A stretch of DNA of 22,511 nucleotides, from IMG/VR virus record IMGVR_UViG_3300030102_007123, positions 1 to 22,511 of that record; one strand, written 5' to 3'. Position numbers and translations under genes: made by a program. Positions within the stretch are counted from its first letter, which is position 1. Each line of letters starts with the position of its first letter. Below the pieces are notes generated by a model. It saw only the letters and a program-made list of their open reading frames with translations. It searched no databases and had not been told where the DNA came from. Of the stretch, positions 3,001-22,511 are shown in pieces. The stretch is from a virus.

Positions 3001-6000
3001 TAAATGACATAGGAGATACATCAACAGGTTTTCTTGTAAACAACGATGGTGAGGTGTTAATAAAACAAGGTGGTGCAAATTCAAACTTTATAAGATTTGC
3101 AAGTGGTGTTTTAGATATAAGAACCGGTACGGCTACCATTAGTGGAAGTGCCGTAAATATAAACACGCCAAAGTTTTTCTTAGGTAGTAGTAGTCAATTC
3201 GTAAGTGGTTCTAATGGAAATATAGAAATAAGTTCTTCTAACTTCCACTTGGATAATCAAGGTAATGTTGATATGACAGGAACAATTACTGCTAATACTG
3301 GTGAAATTGGTGGATTTGTAATTGGTACAACTAGTTTGACTGGTTTAACCAGTGGTACTGAAAAATTTAGGTTAGAAACGGGAACAGGTGATGGTTTACT
3401 AATAGATGATAATCCTTCGTTTGGTCTTTCTCTTGGTGGTGATGCTTCAAGTGATTACAATGCTGATTCTGGTACTTCGATTCCTATTGTTATGGCAACT
3501 CAGCAAAATGCTACTAGAACCATATTTAGAGTGGGTGACGCTACAAACTTTTTAAGATTTGATACTGCTGGAACTTTTACATTACAAAATAGTGGAACAA
3601 CAACGATTAGTGGAAGTGCTGTTAATATACAGACTCCAAAATTTTTCTTAGGTGGTGGTGGACAATTCGTAAGTGGTTCAAATGGTAATATAGAAGTAAG
3701 TTCATCTAGATTTCATTTAAAACCAGATGGTAATGTTGTTGTAACTGGTGAAATAAATGCTGATTCAGGTGACATAGGTGGATTTGCATTAGAAAATGAC
3801 AAAATAATAAATAAAACTGTAAGTGGTACTAGTCAAACTACTTCTTCTTTACATTCTGGTGTTCTTGCGGGTTATGAAAATATAACAAAAAATACCGCTA
3901 CAGACAGAAAAATGACCAGAAGTATATTCTCTGCTGCAGGTGCAAAAAACACAGAAATATGGGAATATAGAGCCGATGATACTCTTTCTTCAAATCACGA
4001 ATTTAAAACTACCGTAACTGCAGGACAATTCTCTCCACCTGGTCAAACTTGGGAATGGGCACATAAAGATCCTTATGATGATTTAGAAGCTTTATTTGAA
4101 AGTATAACTATTCAAAATACATCTGGTAGTTTTAATTCAACTGACAGAGGATTAAAATTAAAATATAATACTGGTATAGGCGGAAGTCTTCAAGAAAAAT
4201 TAGTAATAGGTTGTATAGATAGAAAAAATGTAAATCATTTAGCACCAGGTGGACTTGCTCCTGTTTATTACGGTATAAGTGGTTCAAATGATTTTACTGC
4301 TTCGTTTGGTCGTATTATTAGTTCACAAACTGTAGGCATCGGAACAAATAGTCCTGATAAACCACTTCATATTAGTAGTGCTGATAATCAACCACTTAGA
4401 GTTGAATCAACAGATGCTTATTCTGGTATTGAAATTAAAGATAATGGAAGTTCCACCCTACCACCATTGATTAGTGCTTTATCAGATGATTTTATTATCT
4501 ATGGTGGACATAGCAGTGCAAGACCTGCTGTGATGTCTATCAAATCAGCAGGTAATGTCGGCATCGGCACTACAAGTCCTGTTGCCCCATTACATATTAG
4601 TACAACTGCAAATGCAATCACAAGTACAAGTGTTGATGTATCAAACCTTCAGTTCAAAATACTAAATCCTGCTAATGATAATGATGAAGCGGTAGGTATG
4701 GGTTTTGCTCTTTCTACTGATGACGAAAATATTGGAGCTGCAATTATCCATAATAGACAAGGTTCAGAGAGTTACGGATCTTTACATTTTGCAACAAAAG
4801 CTTCTGGTGATGCTGGTGGAGCTGATATTCCTATCAAAATGTCATTGTCTCCAGATGGTAATCTTGGCATCGGCACCACAAATCCTCAAAGTATGTTACA
4901 TATTTCTGATGCTACTAATAGTAACCTTGAAATTGATGGAGCAAGTGCTGGTGTAATAACAATACAATCACTTAATGATGCTAGAAATGCATATGAAAAT
5001 ATAAAAATATATGGTGATAAAATTAATTTACAAGCAAACACGAGTGGTGAAGTTGGCATTGGAGTTGATTCACCAGTGACAGCATTTGATGTTCATTCTC
5101 ATGGAACTGAGATTCCTGCTGCATTTGGAATGGCAGATGATGGAAATGCTTTGATTGCCACAAGAGTTGGTGAGGTTGAAGGTAGAATAAGTGGACATGC
5201 ATTTATGGTAGGTACTGCTGCAATAGATGGATATAGTTCAACAAACACAACTGCCACAATTACATCAAAAGTTACAAATTCAGGAACTTTAGCAGGTAAT
5301 TTAAAATTTGCTGTTAATTCAGGTGATTCTTTAAATACTGTGATGACTATAGAAAGTAGTTCAGTTTATGTAGAACAACTTGCTCAAGATGACCACATTA
5401 TGGAATTTAGAAGCACCGGCGATGTTGCTCATGGTTTTACTGCTAAAGTCCCAACTACTACTTTTGGTGCTTTTAAAAAATGTAGTGCAACGGCTGGTGG
5501 CCTGATGGTCAGAGGATTTAGGGAAGCGGTAACAGGCCATAGTGCCTTAAGATTAGAGGGAAGTCTTAATGAAAATGCTGATACTGGTAAAAACGGTTCA
5601 AGTTATGGAGTTATTAGAATGGAGGCACATCAACAAAATGGATCTAATAGTCATGCAAACATAGATGTCAATGGTAATATACTTTCTATTGGAACTAATG
5701 GCACCACAGAATTTATTTTTGATAAAGAAGGACAAATTCATTTAGATGCATCTACCGCTCAAATAAATGCATTTGATAGTTATGATGATGCCATGTTGGT
5801 TAGAGCCATGTCAACCACGACAGCACCAAAAGAAATCATTCACAGTGAATTTGATAAATATGTAAAATATAATGAAAAAACATTGATTGAAGCGGGTTTA
5901 CTAGGTAAAGTCTCAGAGGAAGATAAGAAAAAAGGTGTTAGACCACTTGTAAATTCGACTGGTTTACAAAAACTACATAATGGTGCAATATGGCAACAAT

Positions 6001-6125
6001 ATTCAGAAATGCAACAAATGAAACAATTAATGTATGAAACAATGGTTGAAACGATTGGAAAAGAAGCAGCTGATAAAAAATTAGAAAAACATGGTTTAAA
6101 ATTATTGAATCAAAATAAAGATTGA
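1..6125 (+). CDS. Giant repetitive tail-fibre protein, 5'-partial
   Basis: The frame is open from the left edge: the first complete codon is at position 3 and 2040 codons precede the TAA. The apparent TTG start at 69 is internal, because fibre-like sequence (AQLDFYHQS) precedes it, so the true start lies upstream. Eight VGIGT-type repeats occur in two clusters (about 243-960 and 4330-5070), each followed by short beta-strand text such as APLHIS. Between them lie three GW(E/D)L-PG modules (about 1860-2430), several AGW/GGF repeats, and a duplicated module at 3135-3310 and 3603-3780. A non-repetitive island follows (about 3790-4310). The charged C-terminus (about 5760-6125) contains YDDAMLVRAM and LHNGAIWQQYSEM, text I recall at the ends of marine phage fibres; no Ser-Lys pair of the S74 autoprotease type is evident. 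Probable role: an elongated, perhaps trimeric, host-contacting virion fibre. The fibre call is fairly secure; the receptor is unknown. Confidence 0.9.
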   Translation, partial: NAGVGGAQLDFYHQSTSTANDDLVGTINFNGDDSGGNSTTYSRISGIATNVSDGSEEGEIQFWTRTNASTFSEKVRIDNDGNVGIGDTSPDAPLDIEAGVDPLLILNKTGGNNSAIHFQHAGTAKGYIYVGDDELMRFGNPTTNPTLAIDANGRVGIGTINPGGVIGEAMLDISETGTNSDARIVSRTTSVTGSFGAAQGGSRFFTSGPGLAIMTNSNHPIQFATNVTAGGATEDVIIDTNGNVGIGTTSPMGSSDGITGLEIGGSATPGLTIKSTSSSLVYSLWADASDNLNIQDNTNNATRLTVNSSGNVGIGTASPGSLLTIKDTGDISTATFISGITGDGFRIEDNGSDGTFLEVDNIFVRNTLRTHIFQKDVVKATNGILFISDSGVISGSSNSAGTVTFEDSKSATFNDDDILLFKDVPDSGSQAVIGVRFQINGDGTSANGHTTYNVDNVSGDLDDLNVGGTAARISGGTVAIDASSNHSPFIDVNASSGSAVVRMGKLTGITSPRFQTLSGFGIWASGSAYFEGAVNATTGNIGGWGISGNAITSSAGIIKIDANLRRITIKSDSTTDRIYLGEVDGDGSTLPGSPQYGLKIFDGTGTADGDRLVELGAGDNMIVGWELTPGRFQYNDAGGSIALDAGNQQVSVFTGSINTARPKVVMGKLPRVGGSSADDRYGFAVFAGDGNADITNDSTYNVLITRDKAKLAGWDLIPGNIQSDNSFGSVRLSSISQSLAIWTGSINDKEPKLVLGKLPLHDGTVDSPYGFAVFSGTGTVSGSEASASVLITANKARLAGWELVPGQLKSGTVARIDGNQATIALGANANQTHTTAQDNLFYVSASATPTFFVGSNFSFINNTLTAAGWTIGTNSIAKSTDVVIDSNAKSITLGNGSVAIENNSGTPIIRSATNFTSGNGFFLSSAGTDNFRVGNAGAARLQFDGTNFEIYNSSDTKLVSLGASNTIAGWSITSARLSAGNIKIDSGGFIEVSSAGFSNVNDIGDTSTGFLVNNDGEVLIKQGGANSNFIRFASGVLDIRTGTATISGSAVNINTPKFFLGSSSQFVSGSNGNIEISSSNFHLDNQGNVDMTGTITANTGEIGGFVIGTTSLTGLTSGTEKFRLETGTGDGLLIDDNPSFGLSLGGDASSDYNADSGTSIPIVMATQQNATRTIFRVGDATNFLRFDTAGTFTLQNSGTTTISGSAVNIQTPKFFLGGGGQFVSGSNGNIEVSSSRFHLKPDGNVVVTGEINADSGDIGGFALENDKIINKTVSGTSQTTSSLHSGVLAGYENITKNTATDRKMTRSIFSAAGAKNTEIWEYRADDTLSSNHEFKTTVTAGQFSPPGQTWEWAHKDPYDDLEALFESITIQNTSGSFNSTDRGLKLKYNTGIGGSLQEKLVIGCIDRKNVNHLAPGGLAPVYYGISGSNDFTASFGRIISSQTVGIGTNSPDKPLHISSADNQPLRVESTDAYSGIEIKDNGSSTLPPLISALSDDFIIYGGHSSARPAVMSIKSAGNVGIGTTSPVAPLHISTTANAITSTSVDVSNLQFKILNPANDNDEAVGMGFALSTDDENIGAAIIHNRQGSESYGSLHFATKASGDAGGADIPIKMSLSPDGNLGIGTTNPQSMLHISDATNSNLEIDGASAGVITIQSLNDARNAYENIKIYGDKINLQANTSGEVGIGVDSPVTAFDVHSHGTEIPAAFGMADDGNALIATRVGEVEGRISGHAFMVGTAAIDGYSSTNTTATITSKVTNSGTLAGNLKFAVNSGDSLNTVMTIESSSVYVEQLAQDDHIMEFRSTGDVAHGFTAKVPTTTFGAFKKCSATAGGLMVRGFREAVTGHSALRLEGSLNENADTGKNGSSYGVIRMEAHQQNGSNSHANIDVNGNILSIGTNGTTEFIFDKEGQIHLDASTAQINAFDSYDDAMLVRAMSTTTAPKEIIHSEFDKYVKYNEKTLIEAGLLGKVSEEDKKKGVRPLVNSTGLQKLHNGAIWQQYSEMQQMKQLMYETMVETIGKEAADKKLEKHGLKLLNQNKD
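1860..2430 (+). repeat. Three tandem GW(E/D)L-PG shaft modules
   Basis: Protein text of the type GWELTPG, GWDLIPG and GWELVPG recurs at about 1870, 2137 and 2400. The intervening sequence carries shared pieces: SVFTGSIN or AIWTGSIN, then P-K-(V/L)-V-(M/L)-GKLP, then YGFAVF. The period is about 265 bases, roughly 88 residues. Looser relatives (GGWGIS near 1627, AGWTIG near 2602, AGWSIT near 2905, IGGF near 3307 and 3775) suggest one family of shaft modules. The structural role is inferred. Confidence 0.8.
3135..3785 (+). repeat. Duplicated fibre module, about 468-base period
   Basis: Two copies start at ATTAGTGGAAGTG (3138 and 3606). Both encode ISGSAVNI(N/Q)TPKFFLG, then QFVSGSNGNIE(I/V)SSS, then an IGGF element. 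The copies differ mainly at synonymous and conservative positions, so the duplication is not recent but the module order is kept. Confidence 0.8.
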
Positions 6126-6195: not shown

Positions 6196-6510
6196 ATGCC
6201 GACTACATTTGGTCAAGCAAATATAGCCTTTGGGGCTTCTCAATTTACATTTGCTGAATTTAGTATTGCTTATGAACTATCTTTGATTCAAGATGTGGGT
6301 GGAAGATATAAAAGAAAAGAACTATATGACCAACTGTTTAAAAAAGAACCTGAAAAGAAAAGAAAAGTAATTGAGTTGATACTAAAGGTAAAAGGCAAAA
6401 CAATAAAAGATAATGTTCAAATTCCACAAAATGTGAATATATCATTATCAAACATAGATTTAGTAATACAAGAGGTGCTAAAGAAACCATCTGCGAGAAT
6501 ATATGCTTAA
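6196..6510 (+). CDS. Hypothetical protein, 104 aa, basic
   Basis: I do not recognise this family. The first 30 residues are hydrophobic and aromatic (FGQANIAFGASQFTFAEFS) but lack the basic start and cleavage site of a signal peptide. Residues about 38-70 are lysine/arginine-rich and probably helical (KKEPEKKRKVIELILKVKGK). The C-terminus is mixed. The ATG is chosen because AGGA lies seven bases upstream and the frame upstream is short. The gene overlaps the next by eight bases, which suggests translational coupling and a shared role. Composition differs sharply from the Gly/Ser/Thr fibres on both sides, so this is more likely an assembly, connector or chaperone-type protein than a fibre shaft; that is only inference. 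Confidence 0.8.
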   Translation: MPTTFGQANIAFGASQFTFAEFSIAYELSLIQDVGGRYKRKELYDQLFKKEPEKKRKVIELILKVKGKTIKDNVQIPQNVNISLSNIDLVIQEVLKKPSARIYA

Positions 6511-7018
6511 ACTTTATACAGATAAAAAAGAATTATTTGAATGTAATGTAGCACTTGAAGGTGTTGATATAAAAGATTCAAAAATTAGAGCTATTCTTAA
6601 GTTCGATGATAAAAATCTTATGATTGAAGGTAAGATAAAGTCTGGTGGTAAGGGTGAAATTGTTTTTCCTAAATTAAAGGGATTGACCGAAGAAGGGCAA
6701 AAAGGAACAATGGAATTGGAAGTTATTGCAGAAGATGCTTACTTTCAACCATATGAAGAAGATTTTGAAGTAAAAGTTAGTAAAAAAGTTACTGTAGAGG
6801 TATTAAATAAAGAAGAACAAAAACCACAAATTGTTGTTGAGAGAATCACACCAGAAACCGAGTTGATGAAAATGTTAAGAGAAAATGGAATTACCAAAAA
6901 AATGTTGGTAAAAAACAAGTCTCGTTTCACTCCTGTTTTACATAATTATTATAAGGAAGCAAACATTCAAGAAGGTTTTAATGTCTTTTTATCAAAGGTT
7001 TTAAAGAGGTTAGATTAG
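6503..7018 (+). CDS. Hypothetical protein with beta-rich N-terminus, 171 aa
   Basis: No function can be assigned. Residues about 1-100 look like a beta-sandwich-type domain with alternating strands (KIRAILKFDDKNLMIEGKI, then TMELEVIAEDAYFQPYEEDF). A short linker (about 100-115) leads to a helical, basic C-terminus beginning TPETELMKMLRENGITKKM. Its start overlaps the end of the preceding gene by eight bases, with no strong ribosome binding site of its own, fitting translational coupling. The next gene begins one base after the stop. The acidic-plus-lysine composition contrasts with the adjacent fibres. A virion connector or fibre-assembly factor would fit the position but is unproven. Confidence 0.85.
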   Translation: MLKLYTDKKELFECNVALEGVDIKDSKIRAILKFDDKNLMIEGKIKSGGKGEIVFPKLKGLTEEGQKGTMELEVIAEDAYFQPYEEDFEVKVSKKVTVEVLNKEEQKPQIVVERITPETELMKMLRENGITKKMLVKNKSRFTPVLHNYYKEANIQEGFNVFLSKVLKRLD

Positions 7019-9712: not shown

Positions 9713-12700
9713 ATGGCTACTAAAAATATAGTCCCAAGAGGTAATAACGAAGGTCAACTAGGAACTGACGAAAAAAGATGGAATTCAGTAATAGCTGAAA
9801 CTGCTTCTTTTACTACTTTTAGTGGTAGTATAACTGGTAACGAATTTACACTTTTTAGTGGTTCTGCACAATCTACTGCTTCATTTGGTTTTTTAATGGG
9901 AGATGGTCGTGGTCTGACAAATTTGACCGCAACTGCTACACCTGGTGGTTCAGATAATCATGTTCAGTTTAATGATGGTGGCACTACGGGTGGTGATGCT
10001 GGGTTTCAATATAATAAAACAACAAATTCTATAACTCATATAACTAACATAACTGCTAGTGGTCACATAAGTAGTTCTGCAACCTCAACTGGTTCATTTG
10101 GTTTAATATTAGGTGATGGTAGTCAACTAACTAATTTACCAGCATCTTTTACATCTGCTGGTATTAGTGGTTCTTTTACACCAACAAGTAGTAGTTTAGC
10201 AAGTAGAGTTTCAAATATCGTAGATGGTACTACAATAGTTGCAAGTGCAAGTAATGCTATAACAGCAAGTCACGCTTTAAATTCAGGTGTAACTTCATAT
10301 ACAAGCTTAACAAATGTTCCAACTGATATTGTAAGTGGTAGTGCTCAATTAGCAACATCAATTAGTGGTTCGTTTACATCAACGAGTTCAAGTCTTGCTT
10401 CAAGATTAACAACTGCTGAATCAGAGTTGAGTAATACATTAATTAGTGGAAGTGCACAAATTGCTTCTTACATTAGTGGTTCGTTTAACAAAGGGTTTGA
10501 ATTTGATGGAAAAATAAGTGGTTCAATAACTTCAACTGGTTCATTTGGTAGAATTGAAGTTAGTGCTGACACCTTAGCGATTGGCGGAACTGAGTTAAAT
10601 AAAACTGTAGCCGATAATATCACAGACTTAGACCAAGAGTTAAATACAACATCAAGTCCGGTATTTTCTGGTTTAAGAGTTGCTGGAGATATAACTGCTG
10701 AAAGATATATAGTATCTTCATCTGTGACTTTTATGACTCAATCATTCAGCAGTGGTTCAACGATATTCGGCGACACTTTAGATGACACTCATGTATTTAC
10801 TGGTTCGGTAAATATTACAGGTTCAGCAACTATAACATCTCGTTCACCTTTACTTCACCTTAATGAACCACTTGGGCTTGGTGGGGATAGTGCTGTTAGA
10901 TTGACAGAAGATGGTAATTTCAGAGGTGGTTTTATAAAGTATGATGGTACTAATAATCTTCTTAAAATCGGTACACATACAAATAACAACAGAACACTTA
11001 GTGATGATATAGAAACAATACAAATTCAACGAACTGATGGTGTTCCGACTTTTGTAGTGAGTGAAGTAAATTTTAGAGAATATCTACTCCACGAAGGAGA
11101 CTCAGACACTTACGTTAGATTTCAAGGAAATCAAGTAGACTTATCTGCTGGTGGTAATATATTTGAAATAAATACTACATCTCTAAGTGGTTCAGCATCT
11201 TCAACTGGTTCGTTTGGTAGAGTGTTAGCTCCAATTTTTGGTGGTTTTGGAGTAGTTAGTGATGTAGATGATTCAGCTTATGCTATACTCCATGTAAGAG
11301 ACCAGACTGATGGTAGTGCTAAACATTCTTTTAGAATCAATCAGAATCCTTCCTCTACCGAAGCTAGTGTCGATACACTAAAAGTTAGAGGTGAAACATC
11401 TGCTAATGCTCTTGGTATTTATCAATTTGGAACTGGAAATATAGCTGAATTTTTAGATGGAAATACTGCTGTAACTACAATAGACCAAAAGGGAAGTGTA
11501 AGTGGTTCAGCATCTTCAACTGGTTCGTTTGGTTCATTAGTTGTAGCTGATAAAGTACAAGGTGATTTAATAGTAAGTAGTTCAACAAGTGGTGCTATAC
11601 TAAAGGTTAAAACAACAACTACAAATGGTGATGCCTTTGCTCAATTTGATACCGATAGTATGGCGGTTAAAATTGGAGCTGATGGTCACAGCGGAACTTA
11701 CCGAGAAGGTGTGATTTCTGTGTCTGGTAATAGAATGCTTATGTTTAAGCTTGGCTCAGCGGGTGGAGATAAAAGAGTAATGTTTGGTGCAAGTGGTGGT
11801 ATAGGTCTTGGAGATAGTTATGCTTTAGAAACTGCCACATTAATCAATCATGGAATAAAAGCTGAAGGAACAATATATTCAGACGCAAACATAAGTGGTT
11901 CAGCAACTTCAACTGGTTCATTTGGACAAGTCACTACTACAACTCCAGGTAGAATAATCGGTAACATTACTGAAATAATAGAAGTAACTGTGGTGGACGA
12001 TGGTGGAAACCATTATGCTTTTGAAGGAGCTACAACTCCTAATTTAGTAGTAAGTGAAGGAAAGACATATAGATTTGACCAATCAGATAGTACAAATGAT
12101 AGTCATCCTTTTGCATTTAGTTTAACAGAGGATGGTTCTACTTATACCACTGGTGTCACTACAGTTGGAACACCTGGTGTCACCGGAGCTTACACAGAAA
12201 TTAAGGTAACGAAAGCTACTGCAAATCGTTTATTTTATAAGTGTACCTCTCATAGTGGTATGGGTAATCAAGGTAATATTCTTAAAAATGACTTAGGAAA
12301 TTTTGGCGGAAACATAAGCGGTTCATCAACTTCAACTGGTTCTTTTGCTAGAGTTGAAGCTCATGGTGGATTACACATTCCAACTGTAGGTAGTCAAGCA
12401 AATGGTATTTTATTTGGAGATGGTGACACAGGTTTCTACGAAACTGCTGACGATGATGTATATTTTAAAAGAGGTGGTAATACAGTATTTAGAGCAAATA
12501 CATCTTCACAATTAGATATTGGTGTTCAACATTTATTTTTTAATACAACTGGTGGTTTTTTCATTACTACAGGAGCTGGTAGTGCAGCGGCACCAAACTA
12601 TGTATTTAGAGGTGACCAAGATACAGGTATGTATCGTTCAGCTGATAATGTCATTGGTTTTAGTGCTGGTGGAGCATTGCAATTAGAAGTAGCTTCAAAT

Positions 12701-15061
12701 AAAATAAGTGGTTCAGCAACCTCAACTGGTTCGTTTGCTAGAGTAGATTCACACCACACTCTTACTAAACCAGAAGGTCTTTTTATTGCCAGCACAATTT
12801 CACAATCTCATGCTACTATAAATTCTACATCTGGTAGTCATAGAATTTACGATAGTAGTGATGATTTAGTAATTGAAGGTGTTAATTTAGGGAGCAAAGG
12901 AGCTATACAATTTAAGACTGGTAATGGTCCTGGTCACACCAGTAATGCTACCCATATGGTTATCTCCACAAATGGTAATGTGGGAATCGATGCTAGTGAT
13001 GCTGGAAATGGACTTTCGACAGACATAGCTAATCATGGTGGTGGTCTTACTGTATATGATGGAAGCACATCGATAATTAAACTTGTAAATGCCGCCTCTG
13101 GTGTTGGTGCTAGTGATGGTATGGATTTAATGTATGGTAGTACAGGTGCAGTTATTAACAATAGAGAGGCTACAAAGTTAAGACTCGTAACAAATAGTAA
13201 CACATTTACATTTACCACAGATAATCAATGGAGTGGTTCAGCTACTTCAACTGGTTCGTTTGGACATGTTATGGTTGGTGGAAACAACTTTACAACTGCC
13301 GTATCAGAATCAGCAGCTGCAAGTGGATTTGGAACTGGTGGTGGTGGAAGTGGTATTTCTAATGTGGTTGAAGATACAACTCCACAACTTGGTGGTAACT
13401 TAGATACCAATGGAAATGATATAGTATTATCCGACACAACCATAATATACTATAGTGGTTCTTTAGGAACATATAATACTGATAATATTATTGCTGCTGG
13501 TTGGAATAGTGGGTATGCTAATACTGCAAAAATAAATTTAAAAAGATATGGTAGTACACAAGTAGGATTGGGTTTTCAACCATCAGACCAAAGCAACGAT
13601 GTTACTGCGTTGGTTGTTGGTGGTGAAAGCTTGCATGAAGTTGGAATTGGTGCATTTGATGGGCAGCGTATACCACAATATAATCTTCATATTTCAGCTA
13701 GTAATACTGATTATCTGATATACGCAGAGGGTACAAAAAATGGAAATAGAGGAATTTATGTTAGAGGTGGTCATACAGGTAATGCTTTATTGGATACATT
13801 TCATTTTGCAGTCGGTAATACAGGTACAAGTTTACTACGAGGTGATGGGCAAAAAGTAAAATTTCATTCACCAGCAACATTCTTTAGTGGTAGTGGTGAA
13901 ATACAAATGACTGGTAGTCTTGTTGGAACAAGTGCTCAATTCACAGATTATGTAGGTAATGTAAGTGGTTCAGCAACATCAACTGGTTCGTTTGGTAGAT
14001 TAGAAACTGTTGGTGCTTCTAATATTGGTGGTATTTTAAGCATACCAGGCTTTCCTAATGTATCTTCTTCTTTGGCAGCTGCTGTTGCTGGTGGTGATAA
14101 TTTAGGAAATCATACAGCAACTCAAGATATTAACTTAGATGGTAATAATTTAACTAATGTGAGTTCCTTAACTGCTACTGGAAATATAAGTAGTTCATTA
14201 TCCTCAACTGGTTCGTTTGGTACATTGAAATTAAATAATTCAAATGGTGATATAGAAATTCTTAACTCAACAGATGGCTCTATGAATGTAATCATAGGTG
14301 ACAAGACAACTGGAGAAAACATAACTACTGGAGCTGACAATGTAGTAATTGGACAAGGTATTTCAGCCATAACTGGTGAAAATAATGTATACATAGGAGC
14401 TGGTGCTGCAGCAGCTAATGCAACTCCAAATAATTGTGTTGCTGTTGGATATGCAGCTCTGAGTCAAGGAGCTGGTAATCAAAGAAGTGTTGCTGTTGGT
14501 ATGCAAACTTTACAAGGTAATGGTAGCACCATTAACAGTACCGCTGTTGGTCATCAAGCAGGCAAAGCCACCACTAGCGGTGAGGAGAATGCCTTTTTCG
14601 GATATGCATCAGGTGACACAAATACTACTGGAGATAAGAATGTAACACTAGGTTCAGGCGCCGATGTAAGTATAGCTGATGCTCAAAATCAAATTGCTAT
14701 TGGACACAATGTTACATCTACTGGTGATAATCAAACTGTAATTGGTAATTCAGACCAAACTCATGTTGTATTTGGTGGGAATGCACTAATAAGTGGTTCT
14801 GCTCAATCAAGTGGTTCGTTTGGAGTATATAGTAATAATTTCATTCCTAGTATTGATAACACTCATGATTTAGGTTCATCAACTCATAGATGGGCAAATG
14901 CTCACATTGGTGATATAGAACTATCCAATGAAGGCACAGAAGGAAACGAAGTAGATGGAACAACGGGTTCATGGACAATTCAGGAAGGTGAAGATGACTT
15001 ATACTTATTAAATAGAAAGAATGGTAAAAAGTATAAATTTAAACTAGAGGAAATTGAGTAA
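9713..15061 (+). CDS. Giant cassette-built tail fibre, 1782 aa
   Basis: AGAGGA at 9702-9707 supports this start. The protein is a string of beta-rich cassettes separated by twelve SGSATSTGSFG-type tags. Near both ends is an LG-x4-RW motif (QLGTDEKRW near residue 16, DLGSSTHRW near 1722). Residues about 755-865 form a cupredoxin-like domain with H798, C844, H847 and M850. A hinge (AASGFGTGGGGSG) and the linker EDTTPQLGG fall near residues 1203-1227. Residues about 1540-1690 are YadA-like head repeats (VAVGYAAL, TAVGHQAG, IAIGHN). The C-terminus WTIQEGEDDLYLLNRKNGKK is a recurrent phage fibre ending. The stop overlaps the next start as TAATG. Likely a long, probably trimeric host-contacting fibre on the virion surface. 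Confidence 0.9.
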   Translation: MATKNIVPRGNNEGQLGTDEKRWNSVIAETASFTTFSGSITGNEFTLFSGSAQSTASFGFLMGDGRGLTNLTATATPGGSDNHVQFNDGGTTGGDAGFQYNKTTNSITHITNITASGHISSSATSTGSFGLILGDGSQLTNLPASFTSAGISGSFTPTSSSLASRVSNIVDGTTIVASASNAITASHALNSGVTSYTSLTNVPTDIVSGSAQLATSISGSFTSTSSSLASRLTTAESELSNTLISGSAQIASYISGSFNKGFEFDGKISGSITSTGSFGRIEVSADTLAIGGTELNKTVADNITDLDQELNTTSSPVFSGLRVAGDITAERYIVSSSVTFMTQSFSSGSTIFGDTLDDTHVFTGSVNITGSATITSRSPLLHLNEPLGLGGDSAVRLTEDGNFRGGFIKYDGTNNLLKIGTHTNNNRTLSDDIETIQIQRTDGVPTFVVSEVNFREYLLHEGDSDTYVRFQGNQVDLSAGGNIFEINTTSLSGSASSTGSFGRVLAPIFGGFGVVSDVDDSAYAILHVRDQTDGSAKHSFRINQNPSSTEASVDTLKVRGETSANALGIYQFGTGNIAEFLDGNTAVTTIDQKGSVSGSASSTGSFGSLVVADKVQGDLIVSSSTSGAILKVKTTTTNGDAFAQFDTDSMAVKIGADGHSGTYREGVISVSGNRMLMFKLGSAGGDKRVMFGASGGIGLGDSYALETATLINHGIKAEGTIYSDANISGSATSTGSFGQVTTTTPGRIIGNITEIIEVTVVDDGGNHYAFEGATTPNLVVSEGKTYRFDQSDSTNDSHPFAFSLTEDGSTYTTGVTTVGTPGVTGAYTEIKVTKATANRLFYKCTSHSGMGNQGNILKNDLGNFGGNISGSSTSTGSFARVEAHGGLHIPTVGSQANGILFGDGDTGFYETADDDVYFKRGGNTVFRANTSSQLDIGVQHLFFNTTGGFFITTGAGSAAAPNYVFRGDQDTGMYRSADNVIGFSAGGALQLEVASNKISGSATSTGSFARVDSHHTLTKPEGLFIASTISQSHATINSTSGSHRIYDSSDDLVIEGVNLGSKGAIQFKTGNGPGHTSNATHMVISTNGNVGIDASDAGNGLSTDIANHGGGLTVYDGSTSIIKLVNAASGVGASDGMDLMYGSTGAVINNREATKLRLVTNSNTFTFTTDNQWSGSATSTGSFGHVMVGGNNFTTAVSESAAASGFGTGGGGSGISNVVEDTTPQLGGNLDTNGNDIVLSDTTIIYYSGSLGTYNTDNIIAAGWNSGYANTAKINLKRYGSTQVGLGFQPSDQSNDVTALVVGGESLHEVGIGAFDGQRIPQYNLHISASNTDYLIYAEGTKNGNRGIYVRGGHTGNALLDTFHFAVGNTGTSLLRGDGQKVKFHSPATFFSGSGEIQMTGSLVGTSAQFTDYVGNVSGSATSTGSFGRLETVGASNIGGILSIPGFPNVSSSLAAAVAGGDNLGNHTATQDINLDGNNLTNVSSLTATGNISSSLSSTGSFGTLKLNNSNGDIEILNSTDGSMNVIIGDKTTGENITTGADNVVIGQGISAITGENNVYIGAGAAAANATPNNCVAVGYAALSQGAGNQRSVAVGMQTLQGNGSTINSTAVGHQAGKATTSGEENAFFGYASGDTNTTGDKNVTLGSGADVSIADAQNQIAIGHNVTSTGDNQTVIGNSDQTHVVFGGNALISGSAQSSGSFGVYSNNFIPSIDNTHDLGSSTHRWANAHIGDIELSNEGTEGNEVDGTTGSWTIQEGEDDLYLLNRKNGKKYKFKLEEIE
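11960..12295 (+). other. Cupredoxin-like domain inside a fibre protein
   Basis: The encoded segment runs from EVTVVDDGGNHYAFEG to YKCTSHSGMGNQGN. It carries the order His (798), Cys (844), His (847), Met (850), the ligand types of a type I copper site, with HPF and CTSHSGM contexts. The Cys-x2-His-x2-Met spacing is tighter after His than in plastocyanin. I recall similar domains in marine phage structural proteins. Copper binding is an inference; the fold could be kept without metal. Confidence 0.65.
13338..13395 (+). repeat. Fifty-eight-base exact repeat, copy A
   Basis: This stretch, encoding the end of the glycine hinge and the linker GISNVVEDTTPQLGG, is identical base for base to 15692-15749 in the next gene. 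Confidence 0.9.
14330..14790 (+). other. YadA-like head-repeat region
   Basis: Repeated short units of the form (V/I)-A-(V/I)-G-x-x-A follow one another (NVVIGQG, NVYIGAG, VAVGYAAL, VAVGMQTL, TAVGHQAG, NAFFGYASG, IAIGHN, TVIGNS). This is the pattern of left-handed beta-roll head repeats of trimeric autotransporter adhesins and of related phage fibres. It implies trimerisation and a possible surface-binding role. Confidence 0.7.
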
Positions 15062-18000
15062 TGCCTATTATTGCATCATCACATATTACGGCAAGTGGTC
15101 AAATAAGTGGATCTGCTAATACGACAGGTTCTTTTGGTCATCTTATAGTTAGTGGAGATAATTTTGATACTGCAGTGTCATCATCTGCGGCTGCTAGTGG
15201 ATTTGGAACTGGTGGTGGCGGTGGAAGTGGCATCTCAAATGTGGTTGAAGACACGACTCCACAACTTGGTGGTAATCTAGATTTAAATTCTAAAAACATT
15301 GTAGGTAATGGTGGTATTAGTTTATCAGGTTCATTAATTATAAGTGGCACAACAGCACCTACGAGTGCTTCATTACACATTACAGATACTAGTTTTACCG
15401 ATACTCATATATTATCACAATCTTTAGTTGTTGCTGTAGATGGAAACAATGGTAGATTGTTTAGTGTTACAGACCAGATGACTGGTAGTTTATTTAGTGC
15501 AAATACGGTTGCTGGTTTACCTGTCATTGAAGCATTTAGTGATAATAAAGTTACATTAGGACCATTCAGTAGTCAAGTCATTGTAGATAGTAGTGGAAAC
15601 ATAAGTGGTTCATCAACATCAACTGCTTCATTTGGTCAACTTGAAGTTGGTGGTGGAACATTTACATCTGCTTCTCTTGCTGCAGGTGGAAGTGGTGGTG
15701 GAAGTGGTATTTCTAATGTGGTTGAAGATACAACTCCACAACTTGGTGGAGATTTAGATTTAAACTCCAATGATGTAACTGGCACTGGTAATATAAATAT
15801 CGTTGGAAACATAAGCGGTTCAGCAACCTCAACGGGTTCGTTTGGTAAATTAGAAGTTGGTAGTCAAATAAGATTGATTGAAGGTGATGATTCATTTATC
15901 AAAGGTGGTGATTTTGGCATTGGAACAAGCACACCAGTAGCTCGTTTAGAAATAGAAGATGACGGAACATCTAACTCCATGTTGTTGAAACTCACAGTAG
16001 ACGATACTAATGTCTATGGTATGGTTTTCGGTAATGATACCTTTAGCACGACTGATACCGATGGTGGACAACATATATTAAGTAATGATGGTACTTACAT
16101 AATCAGAACACTTGGTTCTGGCACCGCAACGAGAATTGGAGCTGGTACAGCTTATGACAATTATAACTACTTAGAGATAACCGGCTCTATTGCTAAATTT
16201 ACAACCACCACAATAAGTGGTTCGGCAACTTCAACTGGTTCATTTGGTCATATAATGAAAGGTGGAGTTAATTTTGATACGGCAGTATCATCATCTGCTG
16301 CAGCTGCTGGTTTTGGTGGTGGTGGTGGTGGTGGAACTATTACAGCACTAAACAATCAAACTGCAAACAGACTTGTGACCATTGGTTCAACCACAACAGA
16401 ATTGGATGGTGAGGCTAACTTAACATTTGATGGTAGTACCTTAACTGTCAATGGTGATATAATACTTGACGATGGTGGCTCTTTAAAAGAAGCTGGTGGA
16501 ACTGCTGCAATAACATTCGATGGTTCAGGTAATGTAACAAAGATAGGTCAAGATAGCCCAAGTAGTGATGAAGTATTAACTTGGGATGGAAGTAAATGGG
16601 TTGCAGCTGCTGCAGCTGGTGGACAAGCAACTGGTGGTTCTGGTTTATTTGGAGCTGGTACAACTCAAGGTGGAATTTTAGTTAAAGCAGCTGGTGACTT
16701 AACGGGTTCGTTTGTAGATAATATCACAATAAGGTCAGGCTCTTTACATATAGTGTCTGGCACTCTACAAGCAGATATGATAGGACCGAGTGGTGATAAT
16801 ATTGACATAAACTCCATAACTCATCAGTATGGTTCAAAAGATGCTGGTTATGATGTTAGTTATGGATTTGATGGTGGTGTTAGTATTAATTCTTATCTTT
16901 ATAGCATTTTCTTTTCTCCAGATGGTAAAACTTTAATGGCGCTGGATGGTGCTAGTAATAAAAGAATTTATCAATTTGAATTAAAAACTCCTTGGGATGT
17001 TAGAACACAACAATATGTGATGCGAAATACTATGGCAGATGGAGAAACATCTCCATATGGAATGTGGTGGCATCCTGATGGATTAAGATTTTGGTTGGTT
17101 GGAGGTGCAATTGATGGAATATCAGAATATGCCGTTGATATACCTTGGACTTTACCTAAAGACGATCTTACTGTGATAAAATCAATAGATAATAACTTGA
17201 TTGCAAATAATATTGGAGATGAAGCTACTCCAAGAGGAATTTTTTGGAAACCAGATGGAACAAGAGTTTATATTATTGGTGGTTCTAGAGAAACAGTAAT
17301 GCAATATCACACAACAGGCTCTGCGTTTGATATACATGCTTTAAATTTTATAAAAGAATTTGATGTTGATGCTGAAGAAAATGATCCTTACGATGTTCAT
17401 TTTGATAAAACTGGAACTCAAATGTTTGTTGTTGGTACTCAAGCCGATGAAATAAATCAATATCATTTATCACAATCATGGGATGTTGGTACGGCAAGAC
17501 ATGTCGGAGTATACGATACTTCTACTGAGGAACATGTTCCTACCGGTATGTTTTTAAGACCTGACAGTAGTGAAATTTATCTTTTTGGAACTGGTCAAGA
17601 TGAAATTAATGTTTATACCATAAGTGGTTCTCGTAGAGTAAGCACCACAACCATAACTGGTGATGTAAAAGTAGAGGGTAGTGATTTTGATTTTAAAGAT
17701 AGTAGTTATTTAAAAATTTCTAGTTCACTAGAATTAAGCCCTATAGCCGATGTAAATATAAATACGCCAATTACAATGCAAAGTTCTAGTATGTACTTGA
17801 ATAGTGTTGCTAGAGAATTAAAACTTAGTTATCTTAATTTTTTATATGGTTCAAAAGATGGTGGTTATCAAAATAATTATGCATTTGATGGTAATCTTAA
17901 TATTAATTCTTATCTATATGACATGGCTATTTCTCCAGATGGTAAAACTTTAATGGTGATGGATGGTGCTAGTAATCAAAGAATTTATCAATTTGAATTA

Positions 18001-21000
18001 AAAACTCCATTTGATCTTAGAACACAACAATATGTGATGCGAAATACTATCTCAACAGGAGAAACATCTCCAAATGGAATGTGGTGGCATCCTGATGGAT
18101 TAAGATTTTGGTTGGTTGGAACTGTAACTGATGGTATAGCAGAATATAGTCTTGATATACCTTGGACTTTACCTAAAGACGGTTTTACTGTGATAAAATC
18201 AATAGATACCAATCTCATTGATGGTTTTTGGAAACCAGATGGAACAAAAGTTTATGTTATTGGTAGTGGTAGAGATACCATTCAGCAATATGCTGTAACA
18301 GGTTCTGGTAATAATTTTAATATCCACGCTTTAAAACAAGAACATGAAATAGGAGTGCCATATGAAGAAGTTACTCCAAAATCTATTATATTTACATATG
18401 ACGGAAGTCAAATGTTTATTCTTGGTCAGCAAGAAGATGAACTATATAGGTACAATTTATCAAAAAATTGGGATATTAGCACCGCTAGGTATAAAGAAAG
18501 TTTTGATTTTGCCACTCCTTCGGGTGAAACTACTCCAAACTTTGCATATCTTTCATATGACCAAAATAGATTTTATATTGGAGGATCTTATGAAGATGAA
18601 ATTCAAGCTTTTGAATTTGATGAATCACTATATAATCATAGTTCTTCACTAGACCGTCTTAACATCTCAACTCCTACTGACATGTACGGTAATGTAGATG
18701 TATATGGAAAATTAACTTTAAGACAATCACCAACATTTAAAACAGAACCAAATTTTGAACATGGATTAATTAGTGAAACTGGTAGCATTAAAGCTTCTAG
18801 TATATCAAATCCGATTAATGTTGAAAATTTAATATTTGAGTATGGTTCAAAAGATGGTGGTTATAAAAGTGGTTATGGATTTGATGGTGGTATTAATATT
18901 AATTCTTATCTATATGGCATGGCTATTTCTCCAGATGGTAAAACTTTAATGGTGATGGATGGTGCTAGTAATTATAGAATTTATCAATTTACATTAAAAA
19001 CTCCATTTGATCTTAGAACACAACAATATGTAAGTTATACTACTATAGGTGATGGAGAAACATCTCCATATGGAATGTGGTGGCATCCTGATGGATTAAG
19101 ATTTTGGTTGGTTGGGACCTCAAAAGATGGTATATCAGAATATGCCGTTGATATACCTTGGACTTTACCTAGAGACAATCTTACTGTGATAAAATCAATA
19201 GATAATAACTTGATTGCAAATAGTGTTGGTGATGAAACCTTTCCTACTGATATTGTTTGGAAACCAGATGGAACAAAAGTTTATGTTGTTGGACAAACTA
19301 GAGATTGTATAGTACAGTATGCGGTAACAGGTTCTAATTTTGATATCCATGCTTTAAAACAAGAACATGAAATAGGAGTGCCATATGAAGAAACTAGTCC
19401 AAAAGGTCTTGCATTTACAGGTGACGGAAGTCAAATGTTTGGTCTTGGCAATGACAAAGATGAACTATATCAATTTGATTTATCAAAAAATTGGGATATT
19501 AGCACCGCTAGGTTAACAAAAACTTTTGATTTTGCCACTCGTACAGGTGAACTAAATGCATTCTTTGTATATCTTCCATATGACCAAGATAAATTTTATA
19601 TTGGAGGAAGTCAAGAAGATGAAATTCATGTTTTTCAACTACCTAAAACTAACATAACTGGTTCTGGTTATGATAGTAAATTTACTATTGCTTCTCCTAC
19701 TGATGTTTATGGAAATTTAGATGTATATGGAAAATTAACTTTAAGACAATCACCAACATTTAAAACAGAACCAGAACTTACACATGGATTAATTGCTGTA
19801 TCTAGTAGTTTTAAATTTACTGATTCAAGTATATCAAGTCCAATTGATTTATCGACCGCAAAATTTAAACAATCTTCTCCAAATCCAGAAAGTATTGGTG
19901 ATATTTACAGCATATACTTCAAGCCCGATGGAAGAAGAGTAATATTAATGGATGATACCAGTGTTAATAAGATTTTTCAATTTGACTTATCGATTCCTTG
20001 GGATGTTAGCAGTTTAGATACAACAAAAAAAGGTGAATTTAGCGTATCTTCATTTGAGAGTAGTGCATATACGATGAACTTGTCTATGGATGGTTCTTAT
20101 ATGTTTATTGTTGGTGCTGCAGATGATGGAATAAATTCATTTAGATTATCAACTCCTTTTGATATTACTACTGCCACTCATGAAAGAGTAATGGATTCAA
20201 ATTTAATTGCTGGTGGTGATGACGAGACTTTACCTTCAGGAATTTTTGTTAAACCAGATGGTACAAAATTTTATATGATGGGACTCAATAGGGACACCAT
20301 TCAACAATATGCGGTAACAGGCTCTCTTTTTAATATTAATTCTTTAGTGCGAGAACATGAAATAAGGGTAAATAGAAGTGCCGATTCATGTACAGATTTA
20401 CAATTTACAGGTGACGGAAGTCAAATGTTTGTTCTATCTAATGATGATGATTTAATATTTCAATACGATTTACCAAAAAGTTGGGATATTAGCACTGCTA
20501 GACTGATACAGACGAGCTCGGTAAGTGCAGTTGAATCAAGTCCTCGTGGGTTTTTTATAAAACCTGATAACAGTAAAATGTATGTCGTAGGTAGTGGTGG
20601 TGAAAAAATACATGAATTTACTTTAGGAAATGGTAAAACAGGTGCAAATTTTAGAAATTCACAACTTACTGCTTCTACACATACACTTGATATGTCAGGA
20701 CAAGTTAATTTATTTGGTTCAATGGATGTCCAACAAGACATTAATGTATTGGGTTATGTTGATGGTAATCTTAGAGGTTACAGACCTATTGTAAAACAAA
20801 ATTCTGATTTTACATGTACTACAAATAATAGTGGATTTTACTTTAGAGTTGGTGGAAACATAACTTGTTCGATAGCTGCTAATGTTAATTTTACAGGCTC
20901 AGGAATAATCAATGATTCCACTGGCTCCTTATATGCTCCAATTGGGACTGAATGGGACTTTTTTCAAACATCTTCTGCAGGAAACTTTTTATTTGAAAGT

Positions 21001-21120
21001 GCAAGTGGAGTTACCGTAAATGTTAAAAATAATAACATGAATCTTGCTGGTCAATTTTCATCTGCTACCTTAAAGAAAGTAGATGATAATGAGTGGGACC
21101 TCATGGGAGATTTAACATAA
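15061..21120 (+). CDS. Giant fibre with four beta-propeller-like units, 2019 aa
   Basis: The ATG overlaps the previous TAA, with AGAGG at 15046-15050. Residues 1-400 carry four SGSATSTGSFG tags and two EDTTPQLGG linkers; a run of seven glycines ends this part. Residues 420-585 form a linker with WDGSKWVAA. Four propeller-like units follow at about 590-860, 929-1190, 1261-1530 and 1604-1857. Each has about five blade motifs of the form (S/H/K)PDG(T/K)-x-(L/V/F)(M/Y/W)-(V/L)-x-G with W-D-(V/I)-x-T closings. Connectors share DVYGKLTLRQSPTFKTEP. Residues about 1877-2019 (GTEWDFFQTSSAGN, then LKKVDDNEWDLMGDL) resemble a common fibre C-terminal domain. Probably a host-binding fibre with propeller-based adhesion domains; the ligand is unknown. 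Confidence 0.9.
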   Translation: MPIIASSHITASGQISGSANTTGSFGHLIVSGDNFDTAVSSSAAASGFGTGGGGGSGISNVVEDTTPQLGGNLDLNSKNIVGNGGISLSGSLIISGTTAPTSASLHITDTSFTDTHILSQSLVVAVDGNNGRLFSVTDQMTGSLFSANTVAGLPVIEAFSDNKVTLGPFSSQVIVDSSGNISGSSTSTASFGQLEVGGGTFTSASLAAGGSGGGSGISNVVEDTTPQLGGDLDLNSNDVTGTGNINIVGNISGSATSTGSFGKLEVGSQIRLIEGDDSFIKGGDFGIGTSTPVARLEIEDDGTSNSMLLKLTVDDTNVYGMVFGNDTFSTTDTDGGQHILSNDGTYIIRTLGSGTATRIGAGTAYDNYNYLEITGSIAKFTTTTISGSATSTGSFGHIMKGGVNFDTAVSSSAAAAGFGGGGGGGTITALNNQTANRLVTIGSTTTELDGEANLTFDGSTLTVNGDIILDDGGSLKEAGGTAAITFDGSGNVTKIGQDSPSSDEVLTWDGSKWVAAAAAGGQATGGSGLFGAGTTQGGILVKAAGDLTGSFVDNITIRSGSLHIVSGTLQADMIGPSGDNIDINSITHQYGSKDAGYDVSYGFDGGVSINSYLYSIFFSPDGKTLMALDGASNKRIYQFELKTPWDVRTQQYVMRNTMADGETSPYGMWWHPDGLRFWLVGGAIDGISEYAVDIPWTLPKDDLTVIKSIDNNLIANNIGDEATPRGIFWKPDGTRVYIIGGSRETVMQYHTTGSAFDIHALNFIKEFDVDAEENDPYDVHFDKTGTQMFVVGTQADEINQYHLSQSWDVGTARHVGVYDTSTEEHVPTGMFLRPDSSEIYLFGTGQDEINVYTISGSRRVSTTTITGDVKVEGSDFDFKDSSYLKISSSLELSPIADVNINTPITMQSSSMYLNSVARELKLSYLNFLYGSKDGGYQNNYAFDGNLNINSYLYDMAISPDGKTLMVMDGASNQRIYQFELKTPFDLRTQQYVMRNTISTGETSPNGMWWHPDGLRFWLVGTVTDGIAEYSLDIPWTLPKDGFTVIKSIDTNLIDGFWKPDGTKVYVIGSGRDTIQQYAVTGSGNNFNIHALKQEHEIGVPYEEVTPKSIIFTYDGSQMFILGQQEDELYRYNLSKNWDISTARYKESFDFATPSGETTPNFAYLSYDQNRFYIGGSYEDEIQAFEFDESLYNHSSSLDRLNISTPTDMYGNVDVYGKLTLRQSPTFKTEPNFEHGLISETGSIKASSISNPINVENLIFEYGSKDGGYKSGYGFDGGININSYLYGMAISPDGKTLMVMDGASNYRIYQFTLKTPFDLRTQQYVSYTTIGDGETSPYGMWWHPDGLRFWLVGTSKDGISEYAVDIPWTLPRDNLTVIKSIDNNLIANSVGDETFPTDIVWKPDGTKVYVVGQTRDCIVQYAVTGSNFDIHALKQEHEIGVPYEETSPKGLAFTGDGSQMFGLGNDKDELYQFDLSKNWDISTARLTKTFDFATRTGELNAFFVYLPYDQDKFYIGGSQEDEIHVFQLPKTNITGSGYDSKFTIASPTDVYGNLDVYGKLTLRQSPTFKTEPELTHGLIAVSSSFKFTDSSISSPIDLSTAKFKQSSPNPESIGDIYSIYFKPDGRRVILMDDTSVNKIFQFDLSIPWDVSSLDTTKKGEFSVSSFESSAYTMNLSMDGSYMFIVGAADDGINSFRLSTPFDITTATHERVMDSNLIAGGDDETLPSGIFVKPDGTKFYMMGLNRDTIQQYAVTGSLFNINSLVREHEIRVNRSADSCTDLQFTGDGSQMFVLSNDDDLIFQYDLPKSWDISTARLIQTSSVSAVESSPRGFFIKPDNSKMYVVGSGGEKIHEFTLGNGKTGANFRNSQLTASTHTLDMSGQVNLFGSMDVQQDINVLGYVDGNLRGYRPIVKQNSDFTCTTNNSGFYFRVGGNITCSIAANVNFTGSGIINDSTGSLYAPIGTEWDFFQTSSAGNFLFESASGVTVNVKNNNMNLAGQFSSATLKKVDDNEWDLMGDLT
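15692..15749 (+). repeat. Fifty-eight-base exact repeat, copy B
   Basis: Identical to 13338-13395. A third version of the same peptide near 15216-15270 differs at several synonymous positions, so the peptide is conserved while the age of the DNA copies differs. Confidence 0.9.
16315..16335 (+). repeat. GGT trinucleotide run encoding seven glycines
   Basis: Six GGT codons and one GGA encode the hinge FGGGGGGG just after an AAAAG segment. Equivalent hinges in this and neighbouring genes have three to five glycines. Slippage here would change hinge length in frame. Confidence 0.8.
16828..20635 (+). repeat. Four tandem beta-propeller-coding units of about 1 kb
   Basis: The first three units begin with TATGGTTCAAAAGATG at 16828, 17845 and 18841. 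The marker ending in ATGTGGTGGCATCCTGATGG recurs at matching offsets (17047, 18064, 19060), so the periods are 1017 and 996 bases. Unit four (about 19870-20635) is diverged and lacks the YGSKD opening. An exact 54-base connector repeat occurs at 18697-18750 and 19720-19773. Unit two lacks about 11 residues between NLI and FWKPDG that units one and three keep, an in-frame deletion. Confidence 0.88.
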
Positions 21121-21857
21121 TGCCAGGAATTTCGGCTGGATTGGGTGGACAAGTAAATAATAATATTCAAACTGATGGTTTGGTGTTTTATATAGATGCT
21201 GCTTATAAAAAAAGTTATCCGAAAGCAGGATCGACTTGGTATGATTTAATTGGTGCCAACGACACTGCTATAAGTAATGCATCATTCAATTCAAGTGGTT
21301 ATTTTGAACTAGACGGTACAAATGATTCGTTTGAGGTTACGAATGATGGTTCTTCTGATTTTGCTAAACAAACTTTTTCAATTGAGTTTTGGTGTTATGT
21401 AGGTCCTACTGATGGTAATTATGAAATTTTTTGGAGTTATGATTATATAACACATTCTGCTCCATATTATGCACAACATTGGAGAACAAGTAATTCATCT
21501 ACTACATTATATGGTGGATCAAATAAAGACGGTGCTTGGAATTCTTCTACTGGTGTTCATGATGACGTATCATACACCAAAGAAGTATGGACACATTTGG
21601 TTTGGACAATGGGTGATGGTGGTTCAACTAAAACAAGTACATTTTATCAAGACGGTGTATCAATTGGTACTGAAACAAATACAAGCTGGAATGATATCGA
21701 TTATTATAGCCAAGAAGTTATAATTGGTACTTCTCCAAATTTTTTCACAGGTAGATATGCGGGATACATAGCATCTGTTAGGTTTTATGATAGGGATTTA
21801 TCATTACAAGAAGTAAAACAAAATTATAATGCAGGTAAAGAAAGGTTTGGGTTCTAA
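21120..21857 (+). CDS. LamG/ConA-like lectin-fold protein, 245 aa
   Basis: The start is ATG at 21120, overlapping the previous stop as TAATG, with GGGAG at 21105-21109. A GTG at 21093 in the same frame lies inside the preceding gene and would add only MGPHGRFNI, so I reject it. The body has the layout of a Laminin_G_3 / concanavalin-like jelly roll: DGLVFYIDAAYKKSYP near residue 19, TFSIEFWCYV near 80, EVWTHLVWTMGDGG near 150, and the closing strand GYIASVRFYDRDLSLQEVKQ before an NYNAGKERFGF tail. Such domains often bind glycans, so a receptor-binding tip or decoration protein is plausible. No signal peptide is present. A second relative follows immediately. Confidence 0.87.
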   Translation: MPGISAGLGGQVNNNIQTDGLVFYIDAAYKKSYPKAGSTWYDLIGANDTAISNASFNSSGYFELDGTNDSFEVTNDGSSDFAKQTFSIEFWCYVGPTDGNYEIFWSYDYITHSAPYYAQHWRTSNSSTTLYGGSNKDGAWNSSTGVHDDVSYTKEVWTHLVWTMGDGGSTKTSTFYQDGVSIGTETNTSWNDIDYYSQEVIIGTSPNFFTGRYAGYIASVRFYDRDLSLQEVKQNYNAGKERFGF

Positions 21858-21859
21858 TA

Positions 21860-22511
21860 ATGGGTTATAGTTTTGGAGGATCAATAGTAACTGATGGTTT
21901 AGTAGCCTCTTACGATGCTGCCGATAAAAATAGTTATCCTGGTAGTGGAACTAATTGGAGTGATTTGATAGGTTCAAATACAGCAGTGTTGACTAACGGT
22001 CCTACTTTTAGTAATTTGAATAGAGGTTCTATCACCGTAGATGGTAGTAATGATAGTATAGAAATATCATCAGGTTCTGGTGATTTTAGTTTTACTTCCG
22101 AAATGTTTATGGAAGTTATGGTTGTTCCTAAAGAAGAAACTCATGTCAGACCAATTGTTGTTACAAATAGTCAAGAGCCTTGGAGATTGATTATGGCTAG
22201 CACTACGGGTACAGGTGGTGAGTTTTATTTTAATTGGAATATAAATATTGATGGTGCTAATAATACAGTAAGCACAGCATTTTATGTTGAAAATGAACCA
22301 TATATTCTTCAATGTGGGTATGATGGTGCAGAAGTTTTTGCATATATGAATGGAGTGAAACAATCCGATACTGAATCTGCGACTGGCGACATTGACACTT
22401 TAACTAAAGATATTTCAATAGGTGGTGATGCTGGTTATTTTCCAACAAGACATACTAATCTTGATGTTGGATTTTTAAGATTTTATAATCGATGTTTAAC
22501 TGACGAAGAAA
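21860..22511 (+). CDS. Second LamG/ConA-like protein, 3'-partial
   Basis: ATG at 21860, two bases after the previous stop, opens a frame that stays open for 217 codons to the right edge. It begins MGYSFGGSIVTDGLVASYDA, then ADKNSYPGSGTNWSDLIGS, matching the DGLV-x-Y-x-DAA-x-K-x-SYP and W-x-DLIG layout of the protein just upstream. Later landmarks are SITVDGSNDSIEI near residue 57, EPYILQCGYDG, AYMNGVKQ, and LDVGFLRFYNRCLTDEE at the edge, the usual last strands of a Laminin_G_3 domain. About 20-30 residues are probably missing. The ribosome binding site is weak, so translation may be coupled to the upstream gene. Likely a paralogous glycan- or receptor-binding virion protein. Confidence 0.85.
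   Translation, partial: MGYSFGGSIVTDGLVASYDAADKNSYPGSGTNWSDLIGSNTAVLTNGPTFSNLNRGSITVDGSNDSIEISSGSGDFSFTSEMFMEVMVVPKEETHVRPIVVTNSQEPWRLIMASTTGTGGEFYFNWNINIDGANNTVSTAFYVENEPYILQCGYDGAEVFAYMNGVKQSDTESATGDIDTLTKDISIGGDAGYFPTRHTNLDVGFLRFYNRCLTDEE

Follow-up and report, generated by a model that had tools for sequence, protein, structure and literature searches.

How can a phage keep changing the fibres with which it recognizes its hosts without breaking a long trimeric protein? The question is an old one, and the usual answer is a swap of two modules at the fibre tip. The locus described here may offer a different answer. It lies in the IMG/VR virus record IMGVR_UViG_3300030102_007123, of which we analyzed positions 1 to 22,511 (this whole stretch of 22,511 nucleotides is called the window), and comprises two consecutive genes on the forward strand: gene 1 (9713–15061), an open reading frame (ORF) for a tail-fibre-like protein of 1782 residues, and gene 2 (15061–21120), coding for 2019 residues. 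Both contain copies of an 11-residue peptide, SGSATSTGSFG with zero to three changes, encoded by 33 nucleotides and hereafter called the tag; there are 16 copies, twelve in gene 1 and four, all within the first 400 residues, in gene 2. It is likely that these fibre genes are arrays of domains joined by the tag, and that the segments between tags (the cassettes) are exchanged by crossover at the tags, altering the surface that faces the host. Other contigs show cassettes that have been replaced, inserted, relocated or shared among phages; their ends lie in tags, and the crossovers fall inside the 33 nucleotides.

The tags of gene 1, all on the forward strand, are found at 9857–9889 (tag 1, SGSAQSTASFG), 10070–10102 (tag 2, SSSATSTGSFG), 10517–10549 (tag 3, SGSITSTGSFG), 11186–11218 and 11501–11533 (tags 4 and 5, both SGSASSTGSFG), 11894–11926 (tag 6, SGSATSTGSFG), 12317–12349 (tag 7, SGSSTSTGSFA), 12707–12739 (tag 8, SGSATSTGSFA), 13232–13264 and 13964–13996 (tags 9 and 10, both SGSATSTGSFG), 14189–14221 (tag 11, SSSLSSTGSFG), and 14792–14824 (tag 12, SGSAQSSGSFG). 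Those of gene 2, on the same strand, lie at 15106–15138 (tag 13, SGSANTTGSFG), 15604–15636 (tag 14, SGSSTSTASFG), and 15814–15846 and 16216–16248 (tags 15 and 16, both SGSATSTGSFG). An earlier note on this DNA had counted twelve and four copies, with spacings of 213–732 bases in the first gene; all of them were recovered, with the tag counted as 33 nucleotides and the spacing (213–732 nucleotides) measured from start to start. Its statement that the tags are always in the same phase holds within each gene and fails across the two, since they use different frames and the tag is always read in the frame of its own gene. Inside a gene, every segment between tags is a multiple of three nucleotides. 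The exception is a tag-bounded segment of 281 nucleotides with the gene boundary (14825–15105, forward strand), which comprises the C-terminus of gene 1, its stop, the start of gene 2 and the gene 2 N-terminus; a fibre gene could be split, or two of them fused, if such a segment were gained or lost. In the 31.2-kb record of the window, the DNA pattern of the tag had 11 forward matches and none in the reversed control. An additional degenerate tag, SGSNDFTASFG, is seen at position 4278, in the upstream fibre gene.

The nearest relative of the window is the contig L010, in which the neighboring backbone is 95–97% identical at the DNA level and which also has 16 tags, with different cassettes between them. 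Cassette W11 (14222–14791, forward strand), 570 nucleotides of adhesin-head-like repeats bordered by tag 11 on the left and tag 12 on the right, is replaced in L010 by an unrelated cassette of 312 nucleotides, between W10 (98.4% identity) and W12 (99.6%). The contents of this slot differ among the window, L010, L009 (which holds two cassettes there) and L187 (another one). Cassette W7 (12350–12706, forward strand), located in gene 1 of the window, has its L010 counterpart (84% identity) in gene 2, where it is placed between the homologues of W15 and W16, with flanks of 99.7% and 94% identity and both crossovers inside tags. Tag 16 is the one split by this insertion: on the left the match is perfect as far as the fifth tag base, and it resumes from mid-tag rightwards, and between the two halves L010 carries foreign tag sequence together with the W7 cassette, that is, hybrid tags. 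W13, W14 and W15 remain 99–100% identical. A separate break is seen in W3 (10550–11185), which shares only its first 273 nucleotides with L010; it falls at about 10822, beside ITGSATITS, a sequence resembling a decayed tag. Twelve cassette duplications within contigs were also found. In one pair of related contigs, L188 and L089, the difference is a tag-bounded cassette of 106 residues that is duplicated in L188, its copies being 96% identical, and this looks like unequal crossover at tags.

Exchange between phages is also seen in cassette W6 (11927–12316, forward strand), a cupredoxin-fold domain with tag 6 as its left border and tag 7 as its right one. Five tag-bearing contigs contain it, and among them its left flank takes five different forms and its right flank four. 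The W6 region (11888–12352) is 97.2% identical in L105, a 94-kb record with gp23 (a T4-like phage), while the sequences on both sides are unrelated. In a check independent of the tag, cupredoxin peptides alone were used to collect loci (some are contigs already in the tag set). Of the 11 loci reaching 83% identity, 10 show a tag right behind the domain, and these represent four right-hand contexts in addition to that of the window. At the left end of the domain a different sequence is found in L213–L216 and L228, and L219 is devoid of tags. More distant cupredoxin domains (about 47–60% identity) mostly lack tags, although several at 59–63% are still followed by one at their end. The tag is thus confined to some of the phages, and the domain can spread in its absence as well. 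The AlphaFold monomer model of W6 built on a 44-sequence alignment has a confident core, with a predicted local distance difference test score (pLDDT) of about 76–94, compared to 42 in an earlier model from five sequences. Its top Foldseek matches are rusticyanin and small laccases (E value 6e-4, with template modeling scores of only 0.3–0.4). Among the 44 viral sequences, His85 is invariant and Cys131, His134 and Met137 are at least 90% conserved, which amounts to a full type-1 copper ligand set; amicyanin has the same Cys-x2-His-x2-Met spacing. By its modeled fold and its His-Cys-His-Met ligand set, W6 is a cupredoxin with predicted copper binding, which would be an uncommon property for part of a phage fibre.

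These examples were set against a larger sample, obtained by protein and pattern searches, of at least 588 tags in at least 225 ORFs on at least 114 viral contigs, all of those compared being metagenome assemblies. Breakpoints were taken as the ends of homology blocks in an all-versus-all blastn comparison among the tag ORFs. To keep the tag itself from drawing alignment ends, tags were masked with N; at a margin of 12 nucleotides from the tag edge, 130 of the 485 unique breakpoints were then located at tag edges, against 8.0 expected. In ORFs with at least seven tags the figure was 61 of 94. When near-identical contigs were collapsed (97 clusters), 93 of 373 ends lay at tags, whereas 2000 circular shifts of the tag positions gave 20.0 on average and never more than 38. 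The breakpoint rate was 0.42 per tag versus 0.052 per 33 nucleotides elsewhere, and the statistically placed crossovers across contigs are spread over the 33 nucleotides of the tag. An unbiased screen of 4-mers at the ends of blocks sharing 85% identity or more returned tag peptides at the top (STGS, about 1e-60) and then NVGIGT. Among the control motifs, DTTPQLGG, GVTTVGTPG (from the cupredoxin) and GDGSGLTNL, each with few copies, had no breakpoint enrichment, and VGIGT, SGSAQ and AVSSSAAA had an excess with small counts. Homology breakpoints are concentrated in the tag, which therefore behaves as a recombination-boundary motif; given the enrichment at tag edges in the ORF comparison and the ends that fall off tags (see below), tags are a strongly preferred boundary and other boundaries exist too, VGIGT being a second, weaker one. 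NVGIGT(TSP) repeats, seen at 3–6125 of the window and in related contigs, may be joints of a second type between cassettes of the upstream fibre gene.

No peptide of these genes is more conserved than the tag, and such a pattern could arise if tags were merely conserved islands in fast-diverging orthologous genes, with alignments stopping beside them. The probability of such an artefact is negligible, as the enrichment goes up once the tags are masked, 72 of 83 junctions have next cassettes without protein similarity, and the order differs, with cassettes changing gene at high identity; the translocation of W7 and the blocks of 97–100% identity beside unrelated sequence refute it. A second concern is that short-read assemblers fused unrelated fibre genes at the tags, which are near-identical repeats of 33–36 nucleotides in metagenome contigs, and the same arrangement was found in a second contig for only 28 of 110 junction sites. 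This too appears very improbable, considering that cross-contig alignments pass through tags 116 times, that the L105 arrangement recurs in L155 and that of L009 in L010 (independent assemblies), that the tags at junctions differ at several positions, and that reading frames stay open through arrays of 12–18 tags. Chimerism on a wholesale scale also fits poorly with the 28 sites that do recur. The earlier note had proposed mapping breakpoints against relatives and had suggested that the tags could work as homologous adaptors for in-frame swaps. Breakpoints concentrate at tags instead of falling at random, the fixed cassette order and number that it named as the contrary outcome is not what we see (order, content and position differ even in L010), and the adaptor role itself gains support from crossovers inside the 33 nucleotides and from exchange both between phages and between positions.

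The tag could also be no more than a structural linker at domain borders, its DNA being irrelevant, if random or illegitimate recombination occurred everywhere and selection kept the breaks at borders. The tag does sit at such borders (the AlphaFold core of the cupredoxin stops where the tags begin), a different motif, VGIGT, marks borders as well, and phage tail fibres are known mosaics (PMC10684548). Both tags flanking W6 have pLDDT values below 50 in what is a monomer model, which cannot decide on a trimer clamp, and a tag profile compared with the PDB gave no credible match. Illegitimate joining, however, should leave indels, whereas the tag length is invariant: two residues separate SGS and STGSFG in 408 copies, and 0, 1, 3, 4 or 5 residues in none. 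Junction tags are hybrids that switch within 33 nucleotides. At third codon positions, tags on different contigs have an identity of 0.616, against 0.464 expected from codon usage and 0.54 and 0.52 in control motifs, and the serine before the phenylalanine is TCG in 44% of tags versus 4% of serines elsewhere, both pointing to homogenization or exchange at the DNA level. Part of the division into AGY and TCN serines among the tags follows from the pattern used in the search, so that only third positions were taken as evidence. The invariant length and the excess of synonymous conservation point to a probable role of the tag DNA itself as a homology adaptor. Third-position conservation, TCG bias, invariant length and hybrid tags make homologous crossover within the tag more likely than random joining with later selection, although both may act; the purely structural explanation is therefore considered unlikely.

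We propose that genes 1 and 2 string together independent domains by a standard 11-residue connector, any two copies of which could be used as a short homologous crossover site because their DNA is near-constant and their length exactly constant. Wherever two tags cross over, the product would stay in frame and carry a different combination of domains. The exchange is presumably ordinary homologous recombination, or annealing, carried out by enzymes of the phage or of its host (UvsX is encoded in some tag-bearing contigs), and the purpose would be to change the surface displayed to hosts; the function of the cassettes in genes 1 and 2 is deduced solely from their fibre context. Several points weigh against the exchange of cassettes by crossover at tags. 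The tags at junctions differ by 2–5 nucleotides, so the homology is short and imperfect, and the synonymous excess is moderate (0.62 versus 0.46), with a smaller excess of the same kind in the VGIGT control. No recombinase has been tied to cassette exchange. Breaks at domain borders are tolerated for structural reasons, and the enrichment may partly reflect selection after random recombination. ORFs with a single tag have only a small excess (7 of 176 breakpoints at tags), and when tags were left unmasked, block ends away from tags made up about three-quarters of the total for all tag ORFs together and about half for those with at least four tags. The origin of the contigs in metagenome assemblies also counts here. 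More tentatively, and with somewhat more doubt than belief, the tag may be a dedicated DNA-level adaptor kept alike across lineages by gene conversion, and the pool of hundreds of cassettes a shared, freely combinable "parts library" for the fibres of marine T4-like phages, comparable to exon shuffling.

The tag occurs in up to 18 copies per ORF among the matches listed. Across the 225 ORFs its consensus gave 624 matches versus 4–17 for shuffled consensuses, and the wider consensus reads G-N-[IV]-SGS-[AS]-T-STGSFG-[RKH]-[LVI]. The 348 tag-flanked cassettes belong to 255 families. Seven of the 19 tag-bearing records checked carry T4 gp23 and three carry RecA/UvsX. Among named phages, no real tag was recovered by tblastn with concatenated tags, nor by a DNA search of 50,697 phage records at the sensitivity used. 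It was likewise absent by scan from regions of S-CAM4, AG-345-D19, Flavobacterium phage immuto and S-B68, by reading from regions of S-H25, P-HM1 and S-H9-2, and from the stretches of pelagimyophage HTVC008M examined (11–109 kb); one stringent pattern found none in bacterial genomes. A literature search for the peptide SGSATSTGSFG returned nothing.

As to the phage itself, the 31.2-kb record encodes a Portal_T4 gp20 (E value 3e-67) and a large terminase (Terminase_6N, T4likevirus type, E value 3e-14); the source is an uncultured marine phage that these genes mark as T4-like (Tevenvirinae-type). Gene 1 is without hits in Pfam and PHROG, and its last 73 residues match residues 1007–1078 of the tail fibre gp28 of cyanophage P-SCSP1u (PDB 8i4m, E value 6e-17), the matched end being the host-facing one of that fibre (PMC10575957). 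Upstream of these 73 residues there is no match to a characterized fibre protein, and homology at the C-terminus is what identifies gene 1 as a putative tail fibre gene. Tag-bounded cassettes do not make up the end of every fibre gene, an idea that was rejected because only 6 of 56 homologous C-terminal domains fit it; in those six, tags lie 12–18 nucleotides upstream and 26–50 nucleotides past the stop. Beyond its tags, gene 2 has repeated units of the SPDGKTLMALDGASNKRIYQF / WHPDGLRFWLVGG type at 16800–20700, which read like several beta-propellers and are distantly matched in phages of Roseobacter and Lentibacter. Behind the fibre genes, at 21093–22510, come consecutive Laminin_G_3 (concanavalin-like lectin) genes; such genes also occur in L190 (4861–6258), where 6264–7010 reads like one more.

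The joints described here are visible, countable, phase-safe and recurrent in many uncultured marine phages, and domain shuffling thus becomes measurable per joint in natural populations. The tag could also be used as a marker for fibre cassettes in metagenomes, and it suggests natural cut points for expression or structural work on fibre proteins.

Several known systems resemble these arrays in part. A site-specific invertible or shufflon system does not fit, the tag pattern matching on one strand only in the window's own record (11 forward, 0 reverse), although no systematic recombinase search was made. Marine T4-like pelagimyophages and cyanomyophages have a hypervariable host recognition cluster with turnover at the gene level, similarly a fibre-gene island amid conserved structural genes, and the available text of that paper (PMC7029224) mentions neither a tag nor a cassette boundary within genes. 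Recent mosaicism from protein domain shuffling in phages is concentrated in tail fibres (PMC10684548), a work that, in its accessible part, gives domain-level statistics and names no shared DNA or peptide adaptor, unlike the tag described here. In another published system a conserved N-terminus is likewise followed by variable modules with repeated separators; it involves another motif and virus group, and breakpoint mapping within separators is not mentioned in the portion available. The closest parallel comes from the T-even phages, where "recombination between conserved motifs" at fibre tips was already known (Tetart 1998, as cited in PMC3797505). Adhesins with glycine-rich motifs have been described (PMC6851490 and PMC7230728), including a gp38-type tip adhesin with 10 polyglycine motifs among 73 residues (PMC6851490). 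Both cases concern T4-like fibre genes in which short conserved motifs alternate with variable segments and exchange is attributed to the motifs. In gp38, however, the polyglycine motifs are confined to one small tip adhesin, whereas the Ser/Thr/Gly tag of 11 residues links entire domains, 20 to several hundred residues long, over two long genes, and its cassettes change number, order and gene. Membership among the gp38 or glycine-rich adhesins, defined by polyglycine (PGII) motifs between short hypervariable segments, was rejected, as the separator SGSATSTGSFG is not polyglycine and sets whole domains apart, and no PHROG or Pfam match was obtained, although it works alike. The novelty lies in the tag, in the long arrays across two genes that employ it as their uniform joint, and in the mapping of breakpoints to it, and by analogy the tag arrays can be regarded as an array-type variant of T-even motif recombination.

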